Below the pieces are notes generated by a model, which was not told the origin of the DNA, searched no databases, and saw only the letters and a program-made list of their open reading frames with translations. A stretch of DNA of 41,037 nt from a virus, in the IMG/VR virus record IMGVR_UViG_3300035118_000135, positions 1 through 41,037 of that record; one strand, written 5' to 3'. A program made the translations under genes and the position numbers. This document shows positions 100 to 38,795 of this stretch, in pieces. Positions within the stretch are counted from its first letter, which is position 1. Each line of letters starts with the position of its first letter.

Positions 100-501
100 T
101 CACAGGTGGTTAGTCTCCTTCGACGTCTTGACGGCGTGGCAGTGGACGCAGAGGCCCTGCCAGTTCGACTGATCCCAGTAGAGGCGGGGGATGCCACGGT
201 GTGGAACCACGTGGTCCAGAATATTAGCGAAGGCCTGCCGGCAAATTGCACACACGGGGTGGTGCAGCAGGTAGTAGCGGCGGGCTTTGCGGAAGCGTGC
301 AGAGGAGCGGGACAGAGTGACGCCGGGAGCTGGAGCGGCCTGCGCCCGCTGCTGGTGCATCTGCTGATGCGCGAGACAGTAGCCGTTGGTGCGTGCGTAG
401 CCACCGCACAGCGGGAAGTGGCATTCGCGCAGCGGTCCGGTTGGCATGGCGTTACCATAGGCATCGCGGGTGGTGCTCGTAGAGGCGGGTGGCGGTACCA
501 T
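100..501 (-). CDS. HNH endonuclease
   Basis: A 133-aa protein. The C-terminal half is a typical phage HNH nuclease: CAIC (84-87), DH (96-97), an N in SNWQGLC (113), CVHCH (118-122) and the closing KTSKE. The two CxxC pairs should hold structural zinc, and the DH/N/H set forms the metal-dependent nuclease site. The N-terminal part has another Cys/His cluster (CHFPLC...CLAH). In HK97-like phages a small HNH protein beside the terminase genes works with terminase in cos cleavage. Across the circular join this gene lies directly upstream of the packaging genes, so I infer that role. An alternative ATG at 447 would avoid the overlap with the preceding gene; neither start has a strong ribosome site. 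Confidence 0.88.
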   Translation of the reverse strand: MVPPPASTSTTRDAYGNAMPTGPLRECHFPLCGGYARTNGYCLAHQQMHQQRAQAAPAPGVTLSRSSARFRKARRYYLLHHPVCAICRQAFANILDHVVPHRGIPRLYWDQSNWQGLCVHCHAVKTSKETNHL

Positions 502-736
502 CCATCCGCACCGAGCGGTAGAAGCGCACGCCCATGTTGTGCCCCTCGGGCGTGCCGATACGCTGGCCGTGAGTCTCCGCGCTGCGCTCCAGCATTACCT
601 CGCGTACCTTGCCGCCTGCGGGCGTGGCCTTGGCGGTGCCGGTGGCAACCATACTCTCCGCCAGGGCACCAGGGAGGAAGCGAATGTGAGAACCGGTAAA
701 GCCTACCAGGGCGACCTTGGCGGCAAAGGATCTCAC
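452..736 (-). CDS. Small phage protein, unknown function
   Basis: A 94-aa product starting at GTG 736. The GTG directly follows the TAA of the upstream gene (737), and a purine-rich stretch (GGAAGGGAAGG) lies inside that gene's end, so the two look translationally coupled. There is no recognised domain. The N-terminus is mildly hydrophobic (KVALVGFTGSHIRFLPG) and the C-terminus is rich in Arg and aromatics. It is the second gene of the predicted late transcript, between the late leader and the HNH gene. Gene status rests on coupling and position. Confidence 0.6.
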   Translation of the reverse strand: MRSFAAKVALVGFTGSHIRFLPGALAESMVATGTAKATPAGGKVREVMLERSAETHGQRIGTPEGHNMGVRFYRSVRMDGTATRLYEHHPRCLW

Positions 737-928: not shown

Positions 929-960
929 GAGAAGACACGGCGGCGCCGTACCTGCGTGGC

Positions 961-1005
961 GGGATGCTATCGCTTTTGGGTTAAGGCCTGTCCCACACGG
1001 CCTGG
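961..1005 (-). repeat. Hairpin-plus-tail repeat, copy C (late leader)
   Basis: A 45-bp element that aligns without gaps to 18222-18266 (copy A) and 18271-18315 (copy B). Bases 961-975 are identical to the first 15 bases of copy B. It contains an inverted repeat AGGCC (984-988) / GGCCT (999-1003) with a 10-nt loop. Read on the minus strand, the direction of the late genes, it is a hairpin followed by a conserved tail (AGCGATAGCATCCC). It lies about 10-55 nt downstream of the predicted late transcription start. The role is inferred: an RNA antitermination or regulatory signal, or a REP-like repeat. Confidence 0.6.
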
Positions 1006-1245: not shown

Positions 1246-1629
1246 ATGCAAAGCCAACTCGCACTGATTACGGCCCTCTCCGGTTCCGGTGAGCGGCCCG
1301 ACAACGAACTGCCGGGAGGCCGTCCTCCGCATGTCGGCGGGGGACCGATCGTTCTGCCGCCGCGCCCTCCTGGCTGGCCCCCGGTACCCGACAACACCCT
1401 ACCCTCGGGCGGCGCACACCCGAGCAACCCGATCTTCCTTCCGGCAGGGCCGGATAACACGCTGCCCGTGCCGCCCGGAACGATCTGGCCCCCGCTCAAC
1501 CCCGGTGACGGCGTCTCCGGTTCCGGTCTGTTGCTGGTCGTAGTAATCGGCGCTGACGGCGTCCAGAAAACCAAATGGATCTCCGTGGAAGTCCCGGTTA
1601 TCTGGCCGCCAACGGCAGAGCCGAAGTAA
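1246..1629 (+). CDS. Pro/Gly-rich repeat protein (PDNxLP repeats)
   Basis: A 127-aa protein on the strand opposite its neighbours. After a short N-terminus (MQSQLALITALSGSGE) it consists of Pro/Gly-rich sequence with the motif PDN(E/T)LP three times (about residues 19, 48 and 73). It closes with a strand-rich end (LLLVVVIGADGVQKTKWISVEVPVIWPP). AAAGGAAG upstream of ATG 1246 is a good ribosome site, and a terminator follows the stop codon directly. Similar small repeat proteins occur in other phages, but no function is established to my knowledge. Its placement as a lone plus-strand gene between two minus operons suggests separate, perhaps lysogenic, expression. Confidence 0.75.
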   Translation: MQSQLALITALSGSGERPDNELPGGRPPHVGGGPIVLPPRPPGWPPVPDNTLPSGGAHPSNPIFLPAGPDNTLPVPPGTIWPPLNPGDGVSGSGLLLVVVIGADGVQKTKWISVEVPVIWPPTAEPK

Positions 1630-1659
1630 AAAAAAACGCCCCCGACGAAGAGGGCGTTT
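1628..1659 (-). terminator. Strong intrinsic terminator (bidirectional)
   Basis: The inverted repeat AAACGCCC (1634-1641) / GGGCGTTT (1652-1659) has a 10-nt loop. On the minus strand the stem is followed by nine T (1636-1628), a classic Rho-independent terminator that ends the leftward operon whose last gene is 1703-1999. On the plus strand it directly follows the stop of 1246-1629 with a shorter T tract, so it probably serves both. Confidence 0.85.
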
Positions 1660-1702
1660 CTGTATAACGTGACAAAACAAACGTACTGTTATTCTAGCGT
1701 AT

Positions 1703-4869: not shown

Positions 4870-5145
4870 TCAATACTCCTCTGGTAGCAGAAGCGTAGTC
4901 GAGCTTCGGTCGGCCTCCGTGATGATCCAAATTTTCACGCCCGTCGAGAGATGGTAGGACGACATCAGGCGCGAGCCAATTTTAAGCGCGGCGTCGTTGG
5001 CGCGTTTATCTTCGTCGCATACGTCGCCCCAGTCGCCGGTGAGATGGCGGCGCAGCGCGGTATGGGTTTCGCCGGGGCTGGCTTGGTTGAAGGCCTCTAG
5101 CGCCCCCGGCGTGGCTACGATCTGGCCGCAGGGGAAGCGAATCAT
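4870..5145 (-). CDS. Conserved small phage protein (DWGDxxxxDxxxN family)
   Basis: A 91-aa protein from ATG 5145 (ATGA overlap). It has the features of a widespread uncharacterised phage/plasmid family: TPGALEA, then RHLTGDWGDVCDEDKRANDAAL, then GxRLMSSYxLSTGVKIWIITEADRSSTTLLLPEEY. Family function is unknown to me. Often found near accessory genes; here it sits directly upstream of the AcrVA2-like gene. Confidence 0.8.
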   Translation of the reverse strand: MIRFPCGQIVATPGALEAFNQASPGETHTALRRHLTGDWGDVCDEDKRANDAALKIGSRLMSSYHLSTGVKIWIITEADRSSTTLLLPEEY

Positions 5146-5462
5146 GCGGCACCCCGCCTAGGCATTTCGTGTATGACTTTTTTTGGCGCTACCCTCAGCC
5201 CATAGGCCGTCGGATCGAAATACGCCGTCAGCGGCAACATCGGGTTCTTGCGCTCGATATTGGTGTCGTGGAATTCGCGGTGCGCCCTGCGGCCTTCGTC
5301 GGTAATGTGGAAGCCGCGCCCTGGCTTATACGTGATCCACTTACGGATCAGCATCGAGCGGAACGGACGCTGATCGTATAGCATCGCATCCTCGATCTGC
5401 ATGTAGATGCCGGTGACGAAGAGTTCCAGCATTGGGAACTGGCGGTTGGAAAGTCGCGTCAT
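5142..5462 (-). CDS. Winged-helix-like small protein
   Basis: A 106-aa protein from ATG 5462, with GGAGG 11 nt upstream. The N-terminal half, LSNRQFPMLELFVTGIYM...RPFRSMLIRKWITYKPGRGFHITDEGRRAHREF, has the pattern of a winged helix-turn-helix in which a wing precedes 'ITDEGR'. This suggests DNA binding, perhaps a local regulator. The C-terminus is polar. No gene symbol can be given. Confidence 0.6.
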   Translation of the reverse strand: MTRLSNRQFPMLELFVTGIYMQIEDAMLYDQRPFRSMLIRKWITYKPGRGFHITDEGRRAHREFHDTNIERKNPMLPLTAYFDPTAYGLRVAPKKVIHEMPRRGAA

Positions 5463-7770: not shown

Positions 7771-8095
7771 GCGCTTCCTCCATCAGTGCCTTGAGCCGGA
7801 TGCGGCAGGGCACGCACAGCTTTTTCACAGTGACTTCGTTGTACGGCTCGCGGGTGCGCTTATAGTGCGGGCCGAGTTGCGCACCGCAGTACATGCGGTA
7901 GGGTTCGCCGAACAGCTGCACGTGGCGAGCTATCCCGCGAGCCGTCACGAGCACGAGATCGGCCTTGCCGCAGTAAACGGATGGCAGGATCTCAATCTGC
8001 CGTTTCTCCAGGAACTCGACGCCCCGCTCGATAAGGCAGTACTCGCAGCCGATCAGATGCGCGGGTATTTCACGGCTGCAGCGCCGGCACCTCAT
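7721..8095 (-). CDS. Zinc-ribbon protein, unknown function
   Basis: A 124-aa product from ATG 8095; TTG 8125 would add ten residues. An N-terminal zinc ribbon is visible (CRRCSREIPAHLIGCEYC, two CxxC pairs), and a second Cys set follows (YCGAQLG ... LCVPC). The region between looks globular. It overlaps the VRR-NUC gene by 50 nt and is the first gene of the leftward replication operon. It may bind nucleic acid. Confidence 0.7.
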   Translation of the reverse strand: MRCRRCSREIPAHLIGCEYCLIERGVEFLEKRQIEILPSVYCGKADLVLVTARGIARHVQLFGEPYRMYCGAQLGPHYKRTREPYNEVTVKKLCVPCRIRLKALMEEALAATVPAHSASSPAPQ

Positions 8096-8107
8096 GCGCC
8101 CCCAGGC

Positions 8108-8124
8108 TGTACAAAGCCTGTACA
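8108..8124. promoter_or_regulatory. Paired TGTACA sites, replication-operon side
   Basis: TGTACA at 8108-8113 and 8119-8124, one helical turn apart, within an imperfect 11-bp tandem repeat (GGCTGTACAAA then GCCTGTACAAC). They lie just upstream of ATG 8095 in the 257-bp gap 8096-8352 between divergent genes. A similar pair lies at 8268-8285 on the other side. The layout suggests a regulator acting on both divergent transcripts. Confidence 0.5.
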
Positions 8125-8267
8125 ACGTCTGAATACTATCGCTGCTATCGGTACGATATTTACTAGTGTTTTGCGCCTATCTAGTTGATTCGAGTTGGCT
8201 TCTAAAGTAGACCTTCTAGTTTTTTGCACCGATTTAACCCCTTTATTTTCTTTTTCTTCTGCAACAC

Positions 8268-8285
8268 TGTACAAAAAACATGTAC
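8268..8285. promoter_or_regulatory. Paired TGTAC sites, integration-module side
   Basis: TGTACA (8268-8273) and TGTAC (8281-8285), 13 nt start to start, about 70 bp upstream of the GTG at 8353. They mirror the TGTACA pair at 8108-8124 across the divergent intergenic region. No clear plus-strand promoter hexamers are visible between. Confidence 0.4.
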
Positions 8286-8352
8286 CACGTAGTAGACTTG
8301 TCTCTTGGCGGCACCCACGACGAAGGGAGCCGACCAAACAAGGAATACTACT

Positions 8353-9096
8353 GTGACAAAACAAACGACGAAAATTAAGAAGACGGCCGCGAAGGCCACC
8401 AAGACGCTTGCGGCGGATCTCGCAGCCGGGAAAGAGCTTGCCAAGGATAGCCTGGGCGAACCCGCGATCTCGGCCCACATGGGCAAGCTGAACGTGCTCA
8501 GCCTCGTGGCTGATATTGATGCTGCCAAGAACCGCCCCCCGGTTGTGATCCCCTCGGAGATGGGCGCGAACGAGGCCTTCCCTTTTTCCATCCTCTGCAT
8601 CGCCGCGAAGGATAACACCGTGTCCTACGAGCGGTTCAAAAACGAAAAAGCCCGCAACGCGCGGCTGACCGTCCTGGAGAAGGATAAGAACCTCGCCTCG
8701 GCGCGGGCTGAGAACTGGAAGCCCGCAGCGAAGGCCGTTACCCCCGCCAAGGCCAAGAAGGCGGTTGAGGCCGTGGGCGCCAAGATCGTGAAGGCCAAAA
8801 AGGAAGCGGCGCCGAAGGAACTGAAACTGCGGCTCTACGCCAAGGGCGAGTTTTTCTTCCCCAAGCTGGCTGCCGAGAAGCTGAACGGCGCACCCTACGT
8901 CAAGCTTGAGGCCAAGGGCAAGACGGTTACGCTCACGCCCACCAAGAGCGGCAAGGACGCGACGCAGGTGATGTTCTGCCACGCCGCCCCGGTTCTTCGC
9001 GTCGCCAAGCTGCTGGCCGAGACCGGCTGGAACAAGACGACCCAGGACCTGCCGGCGAAGATGGTGGGCGACGCGATCGTGGTCCACCTTCAGTAA
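8353..9096 (+). CDS. Lys/Ala-rich basic protein of the integration module
   Basis: A 247-aa protein. I chose GTG 8353 (VTKQTTKIKKTAAKATKTL) because AGGA lies 8 nt upstream; the in-frame TTG 8305 has no ribosome site. The N-terminus and centre are rich in Lys-Ala (AKKAVEAVGAKIVKAKKEA), like histone tails. The remainder, including KLRLYAKGEFFFPKLAAEKLNGAPYVKL, looks like a small globular domain. DNA binding is likely, but the family is not recognised. It is followed by a terminator and the integrase. Confidence 0.7.
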   Translation: MTKQTTKIKKTAAKATKTLAADLAAGKELAKDSLGEPAISAHMGKLNVLSLVADIDAAKNRPPVVIPSEMGANEAFPFSILCIAAKDNTVSYERFKNEKARNARLTVLEKDKNLASARAENWKPAAKAVTPAKAKKAVEAVGAKIVKAKKEAAPKELKLRLYAKGEFFFPKLAAEKLNGAPYVKLEAKGKTVTLTPTKSGKDATQVMFCHAAPVLRVAKLLAETGWNKTTQDLPAKMVGDAIVVHLQ

Positions 9097-9103
9097 CTCA
9101 CTT

Positions 9104-9146
9104 CGGGCGGGCGGGGGCTTACGGCCTTCGCCCGTTTTCCTTTTCT
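9104..9146 (+). terminator. Intrinsic terminator after the Lys-rich gene
   Basis: CGGGCG (9104-9109) pairs with CGCCCG (9129-9134) with an inner GGC/GCC pairing, followed by TTTTCCTTTTCT. It lies 8 nt after the stop of 8353-9096 and 11 nt before the integrase ATG, so it may limit read-through into the integrase. Confidence 0.55.
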
Positions 9147-9156
9147 GGAGACTGCT

Positions 9157-10401
9157 ATGACAAAACGAACCCACACGACGAAGACGACGATTTACCGCAG
9201 GCACGCCGAGAAGTGCCCCATTCACGGCCAACCCAACAACGTGACGCAGTGCGAGTGCCCGCTGTGGATCCACGGCAAGGTGCGCGGCAAGTTCATCCGC
9301 CAGTCGCTCGATACGCGCACGCTCTCGACCGCCGAGGCCCGCCAGGATACCCTGGAACGCGGCGGGGACGAGGACCCTACGCCCGGTGGCCCCCGGCTGA
9401 TGGGGAAGCCCGCCCCGAAGGGCAGCGAGACCATAGAGCACGCCGCCAAGGAATTCCTCGAGGCCTCCCAGAAACTCTCCTCCAGTTCGAAGGAACTCTA
9501 TGCCCGCGCCGTGGGCCACTTCAGCGCCTGGGCTGCGCAGCAGGAAATTACCCTGCTCGCCCAGGTGGACTCTTCCCACATCCGCCGCTACTTCGAAAGC
9601 CACGCGGGCTGGAAGCGGACCACCGCGCAGGGCCGCCTGACGCACCTGCGGGTGTGGTTCAACTGGTGCGCGCGCACCAAACGCTGGATCGCCTTCCCGC
9701 CTACAGAAGACCGCAAGCTGAATCAGAACAGTAAGCGGGGCAATTCTCCGGCCTCGTCGCGCCTGCCGTTCACGCCCGCGCAGATCACGCAGATATTCGC
9801 TGCTATCGAACAACTGCCCGAAGCCGAGCGCGATCGCGCCCGCGCCCTGATCTACCTGCTGCTGTATTCGGGCATGCGCATCAGTGACGCCACCTTCTGC
9901 GAGCGCGGCTACCTCACGCCCGACGGCAACCTGGACTACTACGTAATCAAAACCCGCCGCCCGATCTCGCTGCCCCCGGAACTGCAGCCGCCCGCCATAG
10001 AGGCCCTGCAGCGGCTCCCCAAGACGCGGGTGTACTTCTTTCAGCCCGACCGCCCCGGAGACTACCAGGAAGCCCGCCAAGCGCTGCGCGAGGGTGAAGA
10101 GTTTGGTTCGCTGATGCCGGATTACGAAACCCGCATCCGCGAGACGACCGCCATCGTCATGAAGGTCCTGGCGCTGGCCGGGATCGACGGGGCCTGCCAC
10201 AAATTCCGCGACACCTTCGCCATCAACCTGCTGGTCGGGGACGGGGAGAAGGGCGCAGACATTTACACGGTGAGCAAGATGCTCGGCCACAGCGACGTCA
10301 AGATCACCGACCAGCATTACATGAAGCTCGTTCCTGGATACCGCGAACGCATGTCGAAGTCCACGCGGGTATTATCCTATCAGTTCCCCCAGGCAGGTTA
10401 A
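9157..10401 (+). CDS. int: Tyrosine recombinase / phage integrase
   Basis: A 414-aa protein from ATG 9157, with GGAG 7 nt upstream. Catalytic residues are all visible: R241 (SGMRISDA), K265 (VIKTRRPI), H348 and R351 (CHKFRDTF), H378 (LGHSD) and Y388 (DQHYMKL). A SAM-like core-binding domain spans about 94-180. The N-terminus has a Cys/His cluster (KCPIHG...CECPLWIHGK, about 20-41), which I associate with integrases of Acidobacteriota. It catalyses site-specific integration and excision of the phage. No tRNA fragment or obvious attP is readable beside it; the 79-bp gap that follows has a small hairpin (CGCGGC 10438-10443 / GCCGCG 10449-10454). Confidence 0.95.
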   Translation: MTKRTHTTKTTIYRRHAEKCPIHGQPNNVTQCECPLWIHGKVRGKFIRQSLDTRTLSTAEARQDTLERGGDEDPTPGGPRLMGKPAPKGSETIEHAAKEFLEASQKLSSSSKELYARAVGHFSAWAAQQEITLLAQVDSSHIRRYFESHAGWKRTTAQGRLTHLRVWFNWCARTKRWIAFPPTEDRKLNQNSKRGNSPASSRLPFTPAQITQIFAAIEQLPEAERDRARALIYLLLYSGMRISDATFCERGYLTPDGNLDYYVIKTRRPISLPPELQPPAIEALQRLPKTRVYFFQPDRPGDYQEARQALREGEEFGSLMPDYETRIRETTAIVMKVLALAGIDGACHKFRDTFAINLLVGDGEKGADIYTVSKMLGHSDVKITDQHYMKLVPGYRERMSKSTRVLSYQFPQAG

Positions 10402-17955: not shown

Positions 17956-18177
17956 TTACTGCGCGGCCATCGCGCCTGCCGCCGATGCGGTGGCGTGCCC
18001 ATCAACGCGGCGTCGGCGCAGTAGACTTTCGTTCACCATCTGAACAACCAGCATGGAGAGAGAAACAGAACCGCCCGCCGTGGTGCTTCTGCGTTTACAC
18101 TCCGAACGCATGGCCTCCCAGACGGGCAGCGGAATCGAAAGACTCATTCGCTTTTGGCGGATTCGTCGAATTGGCAC
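17956..18177 (-). CDS. Ribbon-helix-helix regulator (Arc/CopG-like)
   Basis: A 73-aa protein, first gene of the early operon. The start is GTG 18177: a perfect AGGAGG (18183-18188) lies 5 nt upstream, while upstream in-frame starts have none and run into the hairpin repeats. A strand (RMSLSIPLP) and two helices (VWEAMRSECKRR; SLSMLVVQMVNESLL) fit the ribbon-helix-helix fold, which binds DNA as dimers. It probably regulates early transcription, perhaps its own. Confidence 0.72.
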   Translation of the reverse strand: MPIRRIRQKRMSLSIPLPVWEAMRSECKRRSTTAGGSVSLSMLVVQMVNESLLRRRRVDGHATASAAGAMAAQ

Positions 18178-18221
18178 AAGCGCCTCCTGAACCAGGGAAT
18201 AAGGTTGTATAGGATTTACGC

Positions 18222-18266
18222 GGGATGCCTTCGCTTCTGTGTTACGGTCCTCTCGCAAGACCGAAG
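18222..18266 (-). repeat. Hairpin-plus-tail repeat, copy A (early leader)
   Basis: A 45-bp element equivalent to 18271-18315 and 961-1005. The inverted repeat CGGTC (18245-18249) / GACCG (18259-18263) has a 9-nt loop. Relative to the other copies a stem base pair has changed on both sides (GGTC/GACC here, GGCC/GGCC in B and C), which preserves pairing. It lies in the predicted early mRNA leader, 34 nt before the AGGAGG of the RHH gene. Confidence 0.65.
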
Positions 18267-18270
18267 TTGT

Positions 18271-18315
18271 GGGATGCTATCGCTTCTTTGTTACGGCCCT
18301 TCCCACGGGGCCGAG
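18271..18315 (-). repeat. Hairpin-plus-tail repeat, copy B (early leader)
   Basis: Second tandem copy, 49 nt from copy A. The inverted repeat CGGCCC (18294-18299) / GGGCCG (18308-18313) has an 8-nt loop. Its first 15 bases are identical to copy C. Read on the minus strand it is a hairpin followed by the tail TAACAAAGAAGCGATAGC. Both tandem copies and copy C point along the transcription direction. Confidence 0.65.
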
Positions 18316-18468: not shown

Positions 18469-18489
18469 TTTTCGTGTTTGGGGCGAAAA
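18469..18489. promoter_or_regulatory. Possible operator between divergent promoters
   Basis: TTTTCG (18469-18474) and CGAAAA (18484-18489) form a 6-bp inverted repeat with a 9-bp spacer. It lies in the 58-bp space between the early promoter and the xre1 promoter, where a repressor would control both. Short arms make this tentative. Confidence 0.35.
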
Positions 18490-18497
18490 CAAACGGT

Positions 18498-18526
18498 TTG
18501 GTGCAGCGCCGCTCTTGCGGTAGTAT
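18498..18526 (+). promoter_or_regulatory. Promoter of xre1 giving a leaderless mRNA
   Basis: TTGGTG (18498-18503), exactly 17 nt, TAGTAT (18521-18526). Transcription should start at about 18533-18534, the position of the ATG pair (18534, 18537). No ribosome site exists before the ATG, consistent with a leaderless message, as for lambda cI from pRM. Confidence 0.55.
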
Positions 18527-18533
18527 GTTCCCC

Positions 18534-18800
18534 ATGATGAAAGCCACCAAACCACCTAGGCCCATCAACGGCGCCGTTGCGTGCCGCGCTTTCGGTAAGG
18601 CCGTACGCGGCTTGCGCGAGGGCGCCGGCATGTCCCAGGAAGAGTTCGCTTTCCAGTGCTGTATCGAGCGGGCCCACATGAATACCATTGAGATGGGCCG
18701 CTGTAACCTGTCGCTCGAAATCATGATGCGGATGCTGCCAGTGCTCGGCGTCACCTTCGGCGAACTGGCGCAGGCAGTAGATCAGTATCTGCTGAGCTAG
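18534..18800 (+). CDS. XRE-family regulator 1 (repressor candidate)
   Basis: An 88-aa protein from ATG 18534 (a second ATG follows at 18537). The helix-turn-helix of the Cro/C1 type covers about 20-80: AFGKAVRGLREGAGMSQEEFAFQCCIERAHMNTIEMGRCNLSLEIMMRMLPVLGVTFGEL. It lacks a cleavable C-terminal domain, so any induction would not be by LexA-like self-cleavage. It faces the paralogous regulator at 18808-19095 tail to tail, and its promoter diverges from the early promoter, the position of a repressor. Which of the pair is the repressor cannot be told from sequence. Confidence 0.85.
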   Translation: MMKATKPPRPINGAVACRAFGKAVRGLREGAGMSQEEFAFQCCIERAHMNTIEMGRCNLSLEIMMRMLPVLGVTFGELAQAVDQYLLS

Positions 18801-31814: not shown

Positions 31815-32149
31815 TCCACCTCCAAACAATTCAGTTGCCACTGTACGTGCCGCCGCAGGATATCCAGCATGCCCTTGATCTGGTAGACCACGGGGCCATC
31901 CTGGATGCGCCACCGCGCGTCGATATCGGCGCGGTAGCGGATCTGAATGGTGGTGGTCACTACTTCCTGAGTGCGGCCGCCCGTATCCGTCTCGACGCCC
32001 ACGCTCGGCATCACCGCAGCCCAGACCTGGGCAACTACTTCCCAGTCGGAAATCTCATCCTGGTAGACGTCTTTATAGATCGGCTTCAACAGCGTGACCA
32101 GCCGGTCCAGCTTACCTGCGTCGAGTTCCGGCGTCGTGATGCTCGGCAT
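31811..32149 (-). CDS. Head-tail adaptor
   Basis: A 112-aa protein from ATG 32149 (overlaps the capsid protein 2 stop by 1 nt). The pattern LDRLVTLLKPIYKDVYQDEISDWEVVAQVWAAVMPS...TTTIQIRYRADIDARWRIQDGPVVYQIKGMLD is that of SPP1 gp16 / HK97 gp7-type head-tail joining proteins. It connects the portal-bound adaptor to the tail. Confidence 0.85.
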   Translation of the reverse strand: MPSITTPELDAGKLDRLVTLLKPIYKDVYQDEISDWEVVAQVWAAVMPSVGVETDTGGRTQEVVTTTIQIRYRADIDARWRIQDGPVVYQIKGMLDILRRHVQWQLNCLEVE

Positions 32150-33075
32150 TACGGCATGGTGAAGGTGCCCTTGGCAAAGGCCGCAGGCTGATAGATGGCG
32201 GAGGCCAGCCGCTCCTCGGCGCGGACCGTCACCAGATTGCGCACGAAGTCGTCCTCGTTCTGATCGGCCACTTCCAGCGCGGCGTCGTCGCGGTCGAAGA
32301 TCTGGCTATAGGGGTCGAACTGCCCGACCAGATAGTTGCCGCTCGCCATAGCCTTGCTGAGCACGACGGGAATTCCCCACAGGCTGAGCGGGTTGGTAAT
32401 CAGCCCCGGCGCGCCGATCAGGTAGCCGCCCCCGGTGGACTTAATCTGCAGCGCCGCGCCCCAGTCGCCGGGGTTGAGCACGATGCCCGTGGCGATATAC
32501 CCCCGCGTGTACAATGCGCCGATACCCGCCGCCACGTTATCCAGCAGGGCCACGCCGCCGCTGCCCGCCACGCTCGTTACCGCGATGGCAACCAGCATGA
32601 ATCCCTGCAGGTTCGGAGCAACGCCGTTGCCGTTGAGCAGCTGCTTTTCCTCGGCCTCGGCCAGCCCGTACATCATCCGCGCGTCGATCCAGCTTTGAAA
32701 CATGCTGAAGTCTTCCCAGTACTGCGCGGGCATCTTGAGATACGCGGGCACGGTGACGACAGGCTGTAGCTGGATGTCATAGGTGAGATCGGCAGCGGGC
32801 TTCAGTCCGCCTGCGGCGGTTGGCACGATAGGACTCGATGTGAAGGAAGTCTCCCGCGCGTAGAGAATACCGGAACCAACCGTCGTCCCTGGCGCGATCA
32901 GGGAACGCAGCCGATAGGGGATCGTCGGGCCCGGGGCAACGGCGGGGACCGTCTCGGCAGTCGAAGGATAGACGAGAATCGGCCCCGCCTTACGTTCCAG
33001 GCTGAGCGAAAAGCGCCGGCGCTCGGGGTGTTCCAACAGCGCGTTGGTGATCTGCGCTCCGGGTGAGAGTTTCAT
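32149..33075 (-). CDS. Second HK97-fold capsid protein
   Basis: A 308-aa protein from ATG 33075 (GGAGG, 5 nt). The HK97 capsid core aligns with capsid protein 1 in its C-terminal half: (T)(G/A)xVLNPxxW, (L/V)WG(L/I)PV(V/I), LxGxFxxxxxxFDRxxxxxE, and the near-identical QNEDDFVRNLVT(L/V)RAEER(L/V)A...P(A/K)AFAKG. It lacks the N-terminal delta (scaffold-like) domain. It could be a minor capsid or vertex protein, or a decayed or specialised duplicate. The first 30 residues (TNALLEHPERRRFSLSLERKAGP) are basic. Confidence 0.82.
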   Translation of the reverse strand: MKLSPGAQITNALLEHPERRRFSLSLERKAGPILVYPSTAETVPAVAPGPTIPYRLRSLIAPGTTVGSGILYARETSFTSSPIVPTAAGGLKPAADLTYDIQLQPVVTVPAYLKMPAQYWEDFSMFQSWIDARMMYGLAEAEEKQLLNGNGVAPNLQGFMLVAIAVTSVAGSGGVALLDNVAAGIGALYTRGYIATGIVLNPGDWGAALQIKSTGGGYLIGAPGLITNPLSLWGIPVVLSKAMASGNYLVGQFDPYSQIFDRDDAALEVADQNEDDFVRNLVTVRAEERLASAIYQPAAFAKGTFTMP

Positions 33076-33088
33076 ACGGTCCTCCAAT

Positions 33089-33732: not shown

Positions 33733-33893
33733 ACCGCCTCCTTACGCTCGACAGGCCCAACGGGCGGGCGCTCTTTAGCAACGCCCGCCCGCACGAGTTC
33801 ATCGGCTACCCGTTCCCCGACGACAGCAACCTCCCCCTTGCGACGCCGTCTGCCGTCGGTGCCCGTATAGTCCTTGATGAACTGAATCGTCAT
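33729..33893 (-). CDS. 54-aa basic protein after capsid protein 1
   Basis: A mini-gene from ATG 33893 (ATGA overlap with capsid protein 1) ending at TGA 33729. The product starts TIQFIKDYTGTDGRRRRKGEVAVVGERVADELVRAGVAKE and matches a type of very small phage protein usually found beside capsid or connector genes. The function is unknown to me, perhaps a head fibre or connector accessory. Confidence 0.72.
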   Translation of the reverse strand: MTIQFIKDYTGTDGRRRRKGEVAVVGERVADELVRAGVAKERPPVGPVERKEAV

Positions 33894-35218
33894 TTGCCCT
33901 TCCGCACCGGTTCGCTTTCAAGCCCCACTGCGGGAGTAACGAACGGACCCTTGGCGAAGGCCTTGGGGACGAACACCGCAAAGGCAACGCGCTCCTCGGC
34001 GCGCAGCGTGACTAAGTTACGCACGAAGTCGTCCTCGTTCTGGAAGGCCATTTCCACGTTGACCGTCTCGCGGTCGAACAACGCCGCATTACCGGGGAAG
34101 GCACCGCACAGGTAGTCGTTCAACGTCATGGCGGGCGTGGTAATCACCGGCAGGCCCCACACGCGGGGTGGTCCTTCGCTCAGCGGCGAGGTCGGGAGCA
34201 GGTATTGGCCGAAGGTCGTCTTCAGACTTTCGATGTGAAACCAGTTAGTCGGGTTCAGGACGAAAGCAGTCGGGAAATAAAACTGGTTCTCGATGTATGT
34301 CTCGGCCGCATTCAACTGGTCGAGCATAGTATCGGTCGTCGGCGCTGGCCCCGGATAGTAGACTGCAGCTGCCGTGGCCTGGGGCATAATTCCCCACAGG
34401 TGGCCCGCCGCGTTGCTGCCGAACAGGATCTCGGCGTCTTCTTTGAGAAGCACGAAGAGAGCAAGGCGGTTTTCGATGGTAGCGATGATGAAGGACACGT
34501 CCGACACCATCTGCCGCGACACCTTCACGTAGTGCGCGATAGTGCGCACCACTGCGGTGTTATCGGTATAGGTCACCCCTGACTGGGCTTTCTTGTCGCC
34601 TTCCAGGATCTGGTAGTCAGCGGCGTTCGTCCAGCTTTCCGTCACGTACTCGACCGCGTTGGTGCCGTCAAGCGGAATTACGTCTACCAGATCACGCATG
34701 GTGAGCGGTGCGTACTGCTGCGAGATCAGGCCCACGCGACGGGGGAAGATCGGATACGCGCCCACGGGCGGGGTGATCGTGGTGGCGCCGCCCTCGGCGA
34801 TGGTCGTTACCGCCTTGCGGGCCAGGATATCTTTGATGCGCGTTTTGGTGAGACCCGCCTGGACCTGAAAGCGGCCGCTCCACTGGCAGTTCTTGAACTG
34901 CTCGCTCTCCACGAACTTGGTGCCGACGCTTTTAATCAGCGAACCGTCATCGCCTGCGCCGGGTGGCCGCGAGCCGCGCTCACCGATCAGCTTTACCTTA
35001 GTTTCCAGTTCGTCGCAGCGTTTGTTGGTCGCTGCAATTACCGCGTCTGTTTTGGTATTGAGTTCGGTTTCCACCTTGGTAACTTTACTGCGGGCCTCGG
35101 GGTCCACAAAGCCATCCGTCTTGGCCTGCACCAGCGCGGCGTCGAAATCCTTTTTCCACTCCACCCGCAACTGGCGAATCAGTTCCAGGTCTTCTTTATC
35201 CGGGGTTGTCGTTGCCAT
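33890..35218 (-). CDS. Major capsid protein 1 (HK97 fold with delta domain)
   Basis: A 442-aa protein from ATG 35218. Residues 1-95 form a helical, charged delta domain (EDLELIRQLRVEWKKDFDAALVQAKTDG...) that acts as scaffold and is removed by the protease. The remainder is the HK97 core: RIKDILARKAVTT, TTITPPVGAYPIFPRRVGLISQQ, YVTESWTN, AHYVKVSRQMVSD, TAFVLNPTNWFHIESLK, RVWGLPVITTPAM, and the closing FVRNLVTLRAEERVAFAVFVPKAFAKG. Its gene follows the protease, the standard order. Confidence 0.93.
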   Translation of the reverse strand: MATTTPDKEDLELIRQLRVEWKKDFDAALVQAKTDGFVDPEARSKVTKVETELNTKTDAVIAATNKRCDELETKVKLIGERGSRPPGAGDDGSLIKSVGTKFVESEQFKNCQWSGRFQVQAGLTKTRIKDILARKAVTTIAEGGATTITPPVGAYPIFPRRVGLISQQYAPLTMRDLVDVIPLDGTNAVEYVTESWTNAADYQILEGDKKAQSGVTYTDNTAVVRTIAHYVKVSRQMVSDVSFIIATIENRLALFVLLKEDAEILFGSNAAGHLWGIMPQATAAAVYYPGPAPTTDTMLDQLNAAETYIENQFYFPTAFVLNPTNWFHIESLKTTFGQYLLPTSPLSEGPPRVWGLPVITTPAMTLNDYLCGAFPGNAALFDRETVNVEMAFQNEDDFVRNLVTLRAEERVAFAVFVPKAFAKGPFVTPAVGLESEPVRKGK

Positions 35219-35856: not shown

Positions 35857-37101
35857 TCAAGCTCCCTGCTGCGGCACCGGCACGAGCGGCTCGCCGCCGT
35901 CTGCCGGGGCCATGTTCATCGGCACCATGTATTCGTCGCCGCCGTCGATGCGGACCAAATCCTCCAGATCGCGGATATCGTTCGCGCTCAACCAGCCCCA
36001 CTGCCGCGCCGTGGCGTAGCTCAGGTAGCGGGTGCGGATATCGCTGCGCTCGAAACCGTTGAGGTTCATCTTGTAGCTATAGGGAAATTCGAGCAGCGCC
36101 TTGGTGATCGACTGCTCCAGGCTCACCACGTAGGGGTTGATGGTATAGCGAACGAACTCAATCGACTGCTGTTCCACGCTTGCGTAGGTGGGCTTGTCCA
36201 TCGCGCCGATCAGGTGCGGCGGCACGCCGAAGATACGCGCGATCTGCTCGACGGAAAATTTCTTTTCCTCGATATAGTTCAGCTGGCTGAGCGGGATGGC
36301 AAGCGGCGTGTACTTCATGCCGTCTTCGAGAATACAGATCTGTCCCGCGTTGCCCGGCCCGCCGTGGGTTTCGCGCCACGACTGGCGGATGCGCTTGACC
36401 TGTTCTTCCTTCAGCGCAGTCGGATACTCCAGCACGCCGCTCGGTTGCCCGCCATTCTGATAGATCGAGTAGGCATAGGCTGTGGTCGCGGCTTCGAAGT
36501 CCAGCGTCATGCGGTGGTAGTCGAGCACCGGCAAGCCGACGTAGCCGTCCAGCGTGAACAGCCGGAAGTGAATCAACTCCTCGCCCGAGAAGTGATGCGT
36601 CTTGCCGGTCAGGTCGCTATAGAAATAGTCAAGCGTGCCGTCGGCCTTGAGCAGGATCTGAACGCGCGAGGCATTCAGCGGCCAAAGGCCCATGACTTCG
36701 CCGGCCACGCGGTCGATCCAGGTGAAGGCATTGCCCCACAAAAGCAGGCTCATCATGGTGGGCTGCATCCACTGCGAACTCGTCATCATCGGGTTGGGCG
36801 ACTGGCAAAGCACGCGGTAGAGCGGCGAGTTGACGGCCTTTACCTTGCCCACCGTAGTCTGTTGCAGGACGCTGGTGGGCAGCGAGGCAATTGAATTGGC
36901 GATCAGGCGGCAGCATGCCCAGACCGCCGCGGATTGCAGCGCGGTATTGGCCGTGGGGTTGGTAAGCCCCGCACCGGGCAGGGTGTTAATCATGCCGCCG
37001 TCAGTCCGGTTACCGATCCGCGTCACGCTCCCAACGGTGCGCGAGACGGCCTGCGTGATGGCCTTCCAGGCTCGCGCCGCAGCAGTGTTCAGATTGCCCA
37101 T
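35857..37101 (-). CDS. Portal protein
   Basis: A 414-aa protein from ATG 37101, overlapping the terminase end by 13 nt. HK97-type portal motifs are present: AVWACCRLIANSIASLPTSVLQQ, HxLLxxPNPxMTSSQWMQ-like PNPMMTSSQW, LLLWGNAFTWIDR, ELIHFRLFTLDGYVGLPVL, and IARIFGVPPHLIGAMDKPTYASVEQQSIEFVRYTINPYVVSLEQSI. The dodecameric portal sits at the DNA-entry vertex and docks the terminase. Confidence 0.93.
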   Translation of the reverse strand: MGNLNTAAARAWKAITQAVSRTVGSVTRIGNRTDGGMINTLPGAGLTNPTANTALQSAAVWACCRLIANSIASLPTSVLQQTTVGKVKAVNSPLYRVLCQSPNPMMTSSQWMQPTMMSLLLWGNAFTWIDRVAGEVMGLWPLNASRVQILLKADGTLDYFYSDLTGKTHHFSGEELIHFRLFTLDGYVGLPVLDYHRMTLDFEAATTAYAYSIYQNGGQPSGVLEYPTALKEEQVKRIRQSWRETHGGPGNAGQICILEDGMKYTPLAIPLSQLNYIEEKKFSVEQIARIFGVPPHLIGAMDKPTYASVEQQSIEFVRYTINPYVVSLEQSITKALLEFPYSYKMNLNGFERSDIRTRYLSYATARQWGWLSANDIRDLEDLVRIDGGDEYMVPMNMAPADGGEPLVPVPQQGA

Positions 37102-38795
37102 AAGCCTCGGTTCTCGTAGTCGGGCTTCTCGCCCGGCTGCTGTTTCATCCAGCGGTTTAGACACATCAGCAGGCAGACCACGCCATCAATTTTTTTCTCG
37201 TCGCCATCCTTGGTCGGCTTCATCAGATCGCCCGACTTTTCCACCTTCACGTTGGAGAACATCCAGGAGAGAATCGGGTTGGCGTCGTGGCGGATCTTCT
37301 TCGACAGGACGAGGCCTTCGAGCTCCACCATCGCCGGGTGCATGTTCGGCGCGGTCTGGCGGACCTCAACAGGCTTGGGCAGGCCCGCCTTTTCAATATT
37401 CACCAGCAGTGGACCCGCGTCGAACGGATCGAGCGCAATCTCGCGGACGCCGAAGCGCGTGCACAGATCGGCCAACGCGTTGAGGATGTAGTCGAAGTCG
37501 GTGACATTCCCCGGCGTGGTGGTGAGTCGGCCCATGGTTTCCCAGGCCTGATAGTGAGCGTTCTCGGCGCGGCTGACGGTCTCCTCTGGCAGGTAGTAGA
37601 AGCCGAAGACGACCCAGTGCGGCCGCGCCTCCGTAGGCGGGAAAGCAACCACCAGCGCCGCCATATCACTGCGCAGCGCAAGGTCGATGCCGAGGTAACA
37701 GGCCTCGCCGGCGAAGTCTTCGATGTCGAGCGCCCCGTCGCCGCACTTGTCCCAGGCACCGGCAGGCAGCCACATCATCGCCGCGTTGATCCACACATTC
37801 AAGTGCTTCGTCAGAAACGAGGCCTGCTCGCTCGGCATCTGCATGGCGCGTTTGGCGTCCAGCTTCAACCCTTCCGGGCGCACGCTCACGCCGTAGTTGG
37901 GGTTGGCCTTCGTCCAGGTGGTCTCGGCCCACGGATCGTCGCCGTCATCGGTGGTGTAGATGATGCCGAAGTAGGCGTCGTCCTCGGCCCGCTTGCTGAG
38001 GATATCGATCACATAGTTGTGCTGGTCGTAGCACACGCTGGCGCGGTTTAGGCCCGCCGTAGTGATGGCCCAGATGAGCGGCTGGATACGCGAGCCCGTA
38101 GCCGTTGCGAGCACGTCCCACAGGCCGCGCGTGGGGTGGGCGTGCAACTCGTCGATCAGCGCCCCGTGAAGATTCAGCCCGTCCAGGTTCGAGTGCTCCG
38201 CGCTCAAGGCCTCGAACTTGGACTGCGTCTCCATCTGCACGATGGTGTGCGCCAGGACTTCCACGCTGAAGCGGGCGCGGAAGCCCACCTCCTTGCGTGC
38301 CATCCACTGCGCGTCGGTGAATAAAAGTTTGGCCTGGTTCTGCGTGTTGGCCGCGCTGACGATATGCCCGCCGTGCTCGCCGTCGCAGGCCAGCAGATAA
38401 AGCCCGATGGCGCTGGTCAGGGTACTCTTGGCGTTCTTCCTGGGTACTTCGATATAGGCTACGCGGAAACGCCGCGCCCCGGTGGATCTGGCCTTCCAGC
38501 CAAAGACGCACATCACGATAAAGCACTGCCAACCTTCGAGCGTGATCCGCATCTGCTGTTTCGCCCAGTGCCCGTGGATGTGCGGAAAGAGTTGGACTAC
38601 TTCGAGCACGCGCTCGGCGGCCTTCTGGTCGAAGTAGAAGGGCGAGTCCTTCGCCTGCCAGCGGTCCAGGTCTTCTAGATGCCGCTGGCAGGCGAGGCGC
38701 ACCCAGGTACAGGCCAGCACGCTGCCCTTTACGACGGCCTGGGCGTACTCCGTCCCCCGCGCCACGTTGGGGCACGTTTTAGCGAGGGTTGGCAT
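37089..38795 (-). CDS. terL: Terminase large subunit
   Basis: A 568-aa protein from ATG 38795. The ATPase has Walker A VPRKNAKST (117-125) and Walker B ALIDE (212-216), with AANTQNQA between. The nuclease domain begins LGIDLALRSDMAAL, with further acidic sites in IALDPFDA and KKIDGVV. It belongs to the HK97/P27-partner Terminase_1 type. It powers packaging and cuts DNA together with the small subunit, and probably the HNH protein. Confidence 0.95.
   Translation of the reverse strand: MPTLAKTCPNVARGTEYAQAVVKGSVLACTWVRLACQRHLEDLDRWQAKDSPFYFDQKAAERVLEVVQLFPHIHGHWAKQQMRITLEGWQCFIVMCVFGWKARSTGARRFRVAYIEVPRKNAKSTLTSAIGLYLLACDGEHGGHIVSAANTQNQAKLLFTDAQWMARKEVGFRARFSVEVLAHTIVQMETQSKFEALSAEHSNLDGLNLHGALIDELHAHPTRGLWDVLATATGSRIQPLIWAITTAGLNRASVCYDQHNYVIDILSKRAEDDAYFGIIYTTDDGDDPWAETTWTKANPNYGVSVRPEGLKLDAKRAMQMPSEQASFLTKHLNVWINAAMMWLPAGAWDKCGDGALDIEDFAGEACYLGIDLALRSDMAALVVAFPPTEARPHWVVFGFYYLPEETVSRAENAHYQAWETMGRLTTTPGNVTDFDYILNALADLCTRFGVREIALDPFDAGPLLVNIEKAGLPKPVEVRQTAPNMHPAMVELEGLVLSKKIRHDANPILSWMFSNVKVEKSGDLMKPTKDGDEKKIDGVVCLLMCLNRWMKQQPGEKPDYENRGLWAI

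Follow-up and report, generated by a model that had tools for sequence, protein, structure and literature searches.

A covarying leader RNA of about 45 nt at the head of phage late operons, with tandem copies in one early leader

Genome layout and the three copies

The window, meaning the whole stretch of 41,037 nt analysed here (IMG/VR record IMGVR_UViG_3300035118_000135), carries a 37-bp repeat, 97% identical, at its two ends and is a circular genome, probably that of a temperate siphophage. The minus strand carries, from ~39300 downward, the genes for terminase, portal, protease and head proteins. The late genes, on the same strand, begin at 928 and run through an HNH endonuclease gene and across the origin to the terminase (37089-38795), giving an operon of roughly 20 kb. 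The minus-strand early operon encodes a RecE-like exonuclease and a replication O-like protein and is divergent from a repressor-like gene. The product of its first gene, small and basic, looks by eye like a ribbon-helix-helix protein. Near the start of the late operon lies a gene whose product, named first90, has no match in PHROGs or, at E 0.01, in 50,697 named phage records.

An element of about 45 nt occurs three times (Table 1). The earlier note on this DNA had placed the copies at 961-1005, 18222-18266 and 18271-18315, all facing the same way and with a stem at a matching offset, and they are present as described, with 5 bp at the same place in each. They do not align without gaps, as had been stated: the loop of copy B is one base shorter. 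Because the window is circular and the late genes start at 928, copy A is the late leader and the early leader contains the tandem copies C and B, the reverse of the earlier assignment of B and A to the early operon and C to the late one. The compensatory stem change GGTC/GACC that had been attributed to copy A is real but belongs to copy B, where U-A replaces the C-G of A and C; both of these read GGCC/GGCC. A second compensatory change affects the outer pair, which is A-U in copy A and C-G in B and C. Copy B also has AGGCAT in place of TAGCAT.

Table 1. Positions of the element copies and neighbouring features in the window
Feature	Position	Strand	Evidence or remark
HNH endonuclease, late operon	100-501	-	Pfam PF01844, exactly at cut-off; conserved
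first90 protein, near late-operon start, kept in clade	452-736	-	Found in relatives
First late-operon ORF, 63 aa	737-928	-	ORF list; Pfam, 0 matches
CGTGTC motif, 19 nt past S2 of copy A	934-939	-	CGTGYS in late leaders
Copy A, late leader	959-1003	-	Covariance model R2, 74.5 bits; homologues in 19 other leaders; pair counts
Copy A, S1 (5'/3')	1003-999/988-984	-	
Copy A, L1	998-997	-	
Copy A, S2 (5'/3')	996-991/964-959	-	
Copy A, L2	990-989	-	
Copy A, L3	983-965	-	
Candidate late promoter, TTGCGC-N18-TACGAT	-35 1052-1047; -10 1028-1023	-	Read from sequence
Intrinsic terminator, upstream of late promoter	1632-1661	-	Terminator prediction
First early gene	17956-18177	-	GTG start after AGGAGG; Pfam, 0 matches
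Copy B, early leader, tandem to C, more degenerate	18220-18263	-	R1, 60.7 bits, not independent because R1 was built from the three copies
Copy B, S1 (CGGTC/GACCG)	18263-18259/18249-18245	-	S2 has one mismatch
Copy C, early leader	18269-18313	-	R2, 60.1 bits
Copy C, S1	18313-18309/18298-18294	-	
Copy C, S2 (GUGGGA/UCCCAC)	18306-18301/18274-18269	-	
HTH repressor-like gene, divergent	18474-18800	+	Profile/family matches

Ungapped identity over 45 nt is 35 for A-C, 31 for B-C and 26 for A-B, and the next best place in the genome matches copy A at 25/45. The A-C likeness stands far above background; that of A-B alone is barely above it. When the window record was searched with 900-1060, copy C was found at E 3e-6. 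In same-species contigs, copy B scores 52.8 bits with R2. Folded one at a time, the three copies do no better than shuffled sequences. The three copies left chance open and single sequences gave no folding signal, so a covariance model was taken to relatives.

The element in related phages

Relatives were gathered by a terminase scan of viral contigs (scan 1, best 80 of 595 relatives) and by a second scan independent of the element patterns (scan 2, best 80 of 556). R1 matches four loci (L011, L013, L063 and L014) at 23-50 bits, each ahead of late genes, and gives nothing below E 0.4 on 74 further loci. A pattern of loop plus tail returned 22 stretches, of which 20 were judged real (two being the window's own species) and two chance. 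R2 found five strong elements in 78 loci of scan 2 and one more in the whole record G032. A looser tail pattern returned 90 stretches. Among the 80 that were read, 16 are elements, including one new locus (L255) and one that is record G032 (L282); the remaining 64 are chance by reading, seven of them with some stem of 5-6 bp under a loose rule. Exact element patterns retrieved the same species and one chance coding match (L007), and exact early-gene peptides retrieved same-species contigs only. L112, L120 and L121 were rejected as chance matches, the last scoring 24.4 bits with R2, as was L015, a fifth and weak match of R1, which by reading sits in an apparent methyltransferase gene (DPPY codons).

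Altogether 20 late leaders, 19 besides the window, carry the element, counts that are not independent since the leaders share descent. The first90 gene lies downstream in 19 of the 20; in the twentieth (L102) the contig ends 520 nt past the element. All seven distinct terminase-found records that have first90 and room upstream of it carry the element (L011, L013, L014, L063, L157, L161 and G032), and among the records searched for first90 none was seen with the gene but without the element. One contig (L159) starts 8 nt before first90 and is therefore uninformative. No convincing element was seen in terminase relatives of ~52% identity or less, a group in which many contigs may not cover the late leader. 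The covariance-model search of related phages that the earlier note had proposed places the element ahead of the first late gene, with a stem that covaries.

R2 was also run on 21 whole records, some of them fragments. In 19 of them it finds a single strong match, and the two window-species contigs have two; weaker matches are all at or below 10.2 bits. The early leaders of G003 and G004, placed by synteny, have good promoter-like sequences by eye and no element. Given single copies elsewhere and these bare early leaders, it is the late copy that is widespread; the early pair was seen only in the window species.

A 'degenerate tail' that had been proposed at 8130-8142 falls inside an ORF (8092-10317) and is absent from the R1 and R2 matches in the window at E up to 10. 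That ORF, an early one of 741 aa, is without a match in PHROGs, in Pfam or, by tblastn, in G003 and G004.

Structure of the element

The 5-bp stem S1 is kept by compensatory changes. Three of its five pairs show changes on both sides, and its covariation score was reached by 0/500 shuffles. In 20 distinct rows aligned to R2, 96.8% of 220 cells are paired; this alignment (A6) is fitted to S1 and thus favours it. Two sequences are missing from it, copy B, which runs into the flank of C, and L119, which is identical to L013 over the element. Slid versions of S1 are 55% paired or less. A plain MAFFT alignment of 15 rows (A5, the one behind R2) gives the same picture of S1; it omits L102, L105 and L108, whose 3' arm was displaced by MAFFT, and the near-duplicates L114, L107, L119 and L014. 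Direct parsing of 22 rows finds S1 paired in 107/110 cells and a probable second helix, S2, in 127/132, and the 10 rows found without a DNA pattern give 49/50 and 57/60. Given this covariation, the element is an RNA structure. A structured leader RNA heading both long operons, as the earlier note had suggested, is well supported, since the element covaries and is conserved in related phages. The hairpin was seen there, although its probable pairing of loop with tail was missed.

S2 is predicted from complementarity, over 6 bp, between the loop and a strongly conserved tail. The loop reads GNGGGA and the tail UCCCNC in most rows, with A-U for G-C in L014 and L104, U-A in copy C, and C-G or U-G elsewhere. 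In L063 and L255 the loop has lost a G and a tail C has become U, which amounts to one bulge or two broken S2 pairs. When S2 partners were shuffled among distinct rows, the observed pairing was reached in 0.3%. The covariation score of S2 was reached in 1/500 shuffles, its count of pairs changed on both sides in 81/500, and a +2 slide of S2 likewise yields two cells with both-sided changes. The search patterns prescribe a large part of the tail and some loop bases. S2 is itself partly fixed in this way (GGGA, ATCC), so that mainly its first pairs are unbiased. RNAalifold, which cannot draw pseudoknots, proposes a 3-bp pairing within the tail as a competitor of S2. Both sides of this pairing have changed once (L255), and two rows, copy C and L230, break it. 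Support for S2 taken alone is moderate.

Loop and tail probably form an H-type pseudoknot with S1. It would consist of S1 (5 bp), L1 (2 nt in all 21 parsed rows), S2 (6 bp), L2 (1-4 nt) and L3, which is 18-21 nt long and would carry AAGCRAUAGCA. TAGCAT is present in 20/22 rows, being lost in L063 and copy B, and in 8/10 rows found without a pattern.

Promoters, terminators and downstream sequence

The predicted late start of the window lies near 1016, just downstream of a candidate promoter whose -10 a script scored at 7/12 (shuffle 0.09, not significant alone). The same script predicts a sigma70-like promoter in 18/20 late leaders, at 6-22 nt before the stem, which would put the beginning of the stem ~1-17 nt downstream of the predicted start. 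Of the 19 leaders that could be tested, 9 have a promoter better than shuffles at P<0.05, uncorrected. For L110 and L255 a promoter was read by eye further upstream, at ~27 and ~57 nt. The script placed no promoter directly before copy C or B. The late promoter is seemingly constitutive. An alternative promoter within the element itself (GGGACA...TAGCAT) was rejected, its spacer varying by count from 18 to 22 nt.

Upstream of the window's late promoter, a near-palindrome (TCTGGTTCAGTGAACGAGA, minus strand, 1067-1085) is a possible operator. An operator common to the early and late promoter regions was not found, shared sequence never exceeding 10 nt. Further upstream lies a small proline-rich ORF in inverted orientation (1246-1629, plus strand). 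In L011, L013 and others, genes that resemble it by eye are the first to follow the element.

A short motif, CGTGYS, follows the element. It occurs within 45 nt after S2 in 17/22 leaders, where shuffles lead one to expect 0.9. These are 17 of the 20 late leaders, and in 15 of the 20 the motif stands 18-22 nt after S2; it is absent after both early copies. Reading it as a GTG start codon was rejected, because in L114 and L113 the GTG and the gene that follows are in different frames. The open frame directly after the element varies between phages, as does its distance, and the early copies of the window precede a gene unrelated to the late one. Taken with the 19/20 association with first90, these observations tie the element to the head of the late operon rather than to one gene.

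An intrinsic terminator lies within 100 nt upstream in 6/19 leaders. Downstream, scanning 57-1200 nt turned up a weak terminator candidate in one of 19 leaders (L110). Across the window there are 23 intrinsic terminator candidates by raw count: the minus strand, which is the transcribed one, has 10 and the plus strand 13. Of the minus-strand candidates, eight are inside operons, ranging from -10.0 to -18.9 kcal/mol, and one of these eight (40987) is early in the late operon. The window shows no sense-strand excess of intrinsic terminators, and so no demand for antitermination follows from their number.

Comparison with known systems

Searched against Rfam, the window matches 0 families at the gathering threshold, and in 18 element-bearing loci examined up to E 1, the two sub-threshold matches (E 0.42 and 0.96) both fall outside the element. 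A literature search that left subscription papers mostly beyond its reach found no description of the element. On sequence evidence, it appears to be a structured phage RNA family for which no published description was found.

The closest likeness is to HK022 put. PMC9378689 describes putL as situated directly after PL, with a 5-bp stem at its 5' side whose minor groove takes up a third RNA strand, with an internal -10-like NANNAT, and as acting at a pause located 21 nt beyond stem II; the paper also mentions ten aligned putRNA sequences. By analogy, each of these features may have a counterpart here, among them a short 5' stem, a candidate third strand (L3) and an internal NANNAT. Its late copies stand just behind promoter-like sequence, as putL does, and early copy C appears by eye to lie ~90 nt from its promoter, putR also being further off. 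The element differs in being ~45 nt with one stem and a probable pseudoknot, whereas put is ~70 nt with two stem-loops; by eye, a second hairpin can be drawn downstream in some leaders, not all. It also occurs mainly in late leaders, put in early ones. R2 finds no put homologue in the HK022 genome, the best match (13.5 bits, E 0.045) being antisense within the endolysin gene, and the element is for that reason not filed as a member of put.

Other systems share single features with the element. As in lambda nut/N, a hairpin stands in the leaders of long phage operons, but the order boxA-boxB was not seen by eye in the element leaders. No N-like protein was matched among the window proteins scanned, a subset of ORFs in which small Arg-rich proteins are easily missed. 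Lambda qut/Q likewise has a late promoter with a -10-like sequence downstream; the element differs in being a covarying RNA downstream of the start, and a Q family match is absent among the scanned proteins. The GC-NNTA-GC core in most element rows recalls the RfaH ops site, yet the central G4, G5, T6, A7 and G8 are not all kept, G5 being A in 22/22 rows. EAR, canT, conAn2 and LoaP/dfn are leader RNAs for processive antitermination (PMC11658703 and PMC12691694). The element is also a leader RNA; these systems are known from Gram-positive hosts, and the comparison was made through Rfam, in which no family matched the element.

A proposed role and its alternatives

The preferred reading, given a probability of about 0.5, is that the element, as nascent RNA, acts in cis to modify RNA polymerase, as HK022 put does, yet is unrelated to put. 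In this reading the late transcript carries the ~45-nt RNA close to its 5' end, and in the window phage the early leader carries it too. When S2 clears the exit channel, the polymerase would be ~20 nt further on, at CGTGYS; judged from the usual footprint, this spacing would match the stretch of RNA that polymerase covers. The folded RNA would then engage RNA polymerase and confer resistance to pausing and termination. As a result the late operon of ~20 kb, and in the window phage also the early operon, would be read to the end. That a protein-free pseudoknot antiterminator unrelated to put replaced a Q-type late antiterminator in a clade of uncultivated phages, and was copied into the early leader of one of them so that a single RNA would serve both long operons, is a more specific proposal that must be called tentative and rather doubtful.

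An action after transcription, in which an element at the 5' end protects late mRNA, controls translation or senses a ligand while polymerase is untouched, is unlikely. Pseudoknots at 5' ends can act in this way, and two observations suit such a role: the element begins very near the predicted start in the 18 late leaders described above, and intrinsic terminators show no sense-strand excess. However, the varying next ORF and its varying distance make a gene-specific translation switch unlikely, the steady spacing of CGTGYS suggests a step during transcription, and no recognisable promoter stands close before copies C and B. It is quite unlikely that the RNA alone is inert and serves as the landing site of a phage or host RNA-binding protein (N/nut-like or LoaP-like) that modifies polymerase. 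Such a site would account for the conserved AAGCRAUAGCA and loop, which resemble a recognition surface, and LoaP needs a leader hairpin (PMC12691694). A 106-aa early protein (5142-5462), a candidate late regulator and by eye possibly a winged helix, occurs in 7/14 element-bearing records at 64-74% identity and in 0/4 terminase relatives without a detected element. Yet it is undetected in the other seven element-bearing records, some of them ~36-42 kb long, and matches to the N, Q and NusG families are absent among the window proteins scanned, which is weak evidence from a subset of ORFs.

A signal read as DNA is improbable. Here an ops-like non-template hairpin (GC-GATA-GC) or a -10-like sigma pause would recruit a NusG paralogue or Q-like factor, the RNA hairpin being an accessory to the pause. 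By count, AGCGATAGCAT agrees with E. coli ops GGCGGTAGCGT at 8/11 positions and keeps the C3:G8 pair, and TAGCAT fits NANNAT. A linear DNA site would nonetheless leave the covariation of the stem unexplained. The substitution G5A in ops abolishes RfaH recruitment (PMC5995543), and the A at this position in every row, fixed by the pattern in pattern-found rows, is joined in L230 and L255 by a change of G4 to A. By eye, the late leaders have no conserved spacer sequence between -35 and -10 of the Q-site kind. Q sites have conserved sequence there. A REP-like host repeat, which the earlier note had raised as its alternative, a packaging site or chance resemblance can scarcely be credited. The element lies within a few hundred bases of a contig end in some records (upstream in G019 and G004, downstream in G010) and is followed by late genes that include terminase. 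Against this, the 19 other whole-scanned records have one strong copy each, mostly beside promoter-like sequence, and 84,980 species genomes gave 0 matches to a stricter exact pattern and one to a looser pattern, scans that diverged copies would escape; the sole match lies within a 244-aa coding frame and was judged chance. The early copies of the window phage and the covariation likewise argue against this group of readings.

Among phages, antitermination by RNA alone is known chiefly from put, which occurs in a few lambdoid phages. If modification of polymerase in cis by the nascent element is true, a second, unrelated compact RNA is spread across a clade and linked to late promoters, and the RNA-only solution arose more than once. 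The element would then also offer a module of ~45 nt for structural work and a marker of late promoters in uncultivated phages. Should it instead be a stability or translation element, it would still be a structured phage RNA family.

Further observations on the window

Two further repeats were noted. The sequence CGTTTGTTTTGTCAC is common, by eye, to ~1668-1682, near the early-side end, and to 8361-8375 in the 8 kb region, both on the minus strand. The proteins of 32149-33087 and 33890-35218 both match one major head protein family (phrog_10), and a 75-nt repeat, 81% identical, lies between the two genes.
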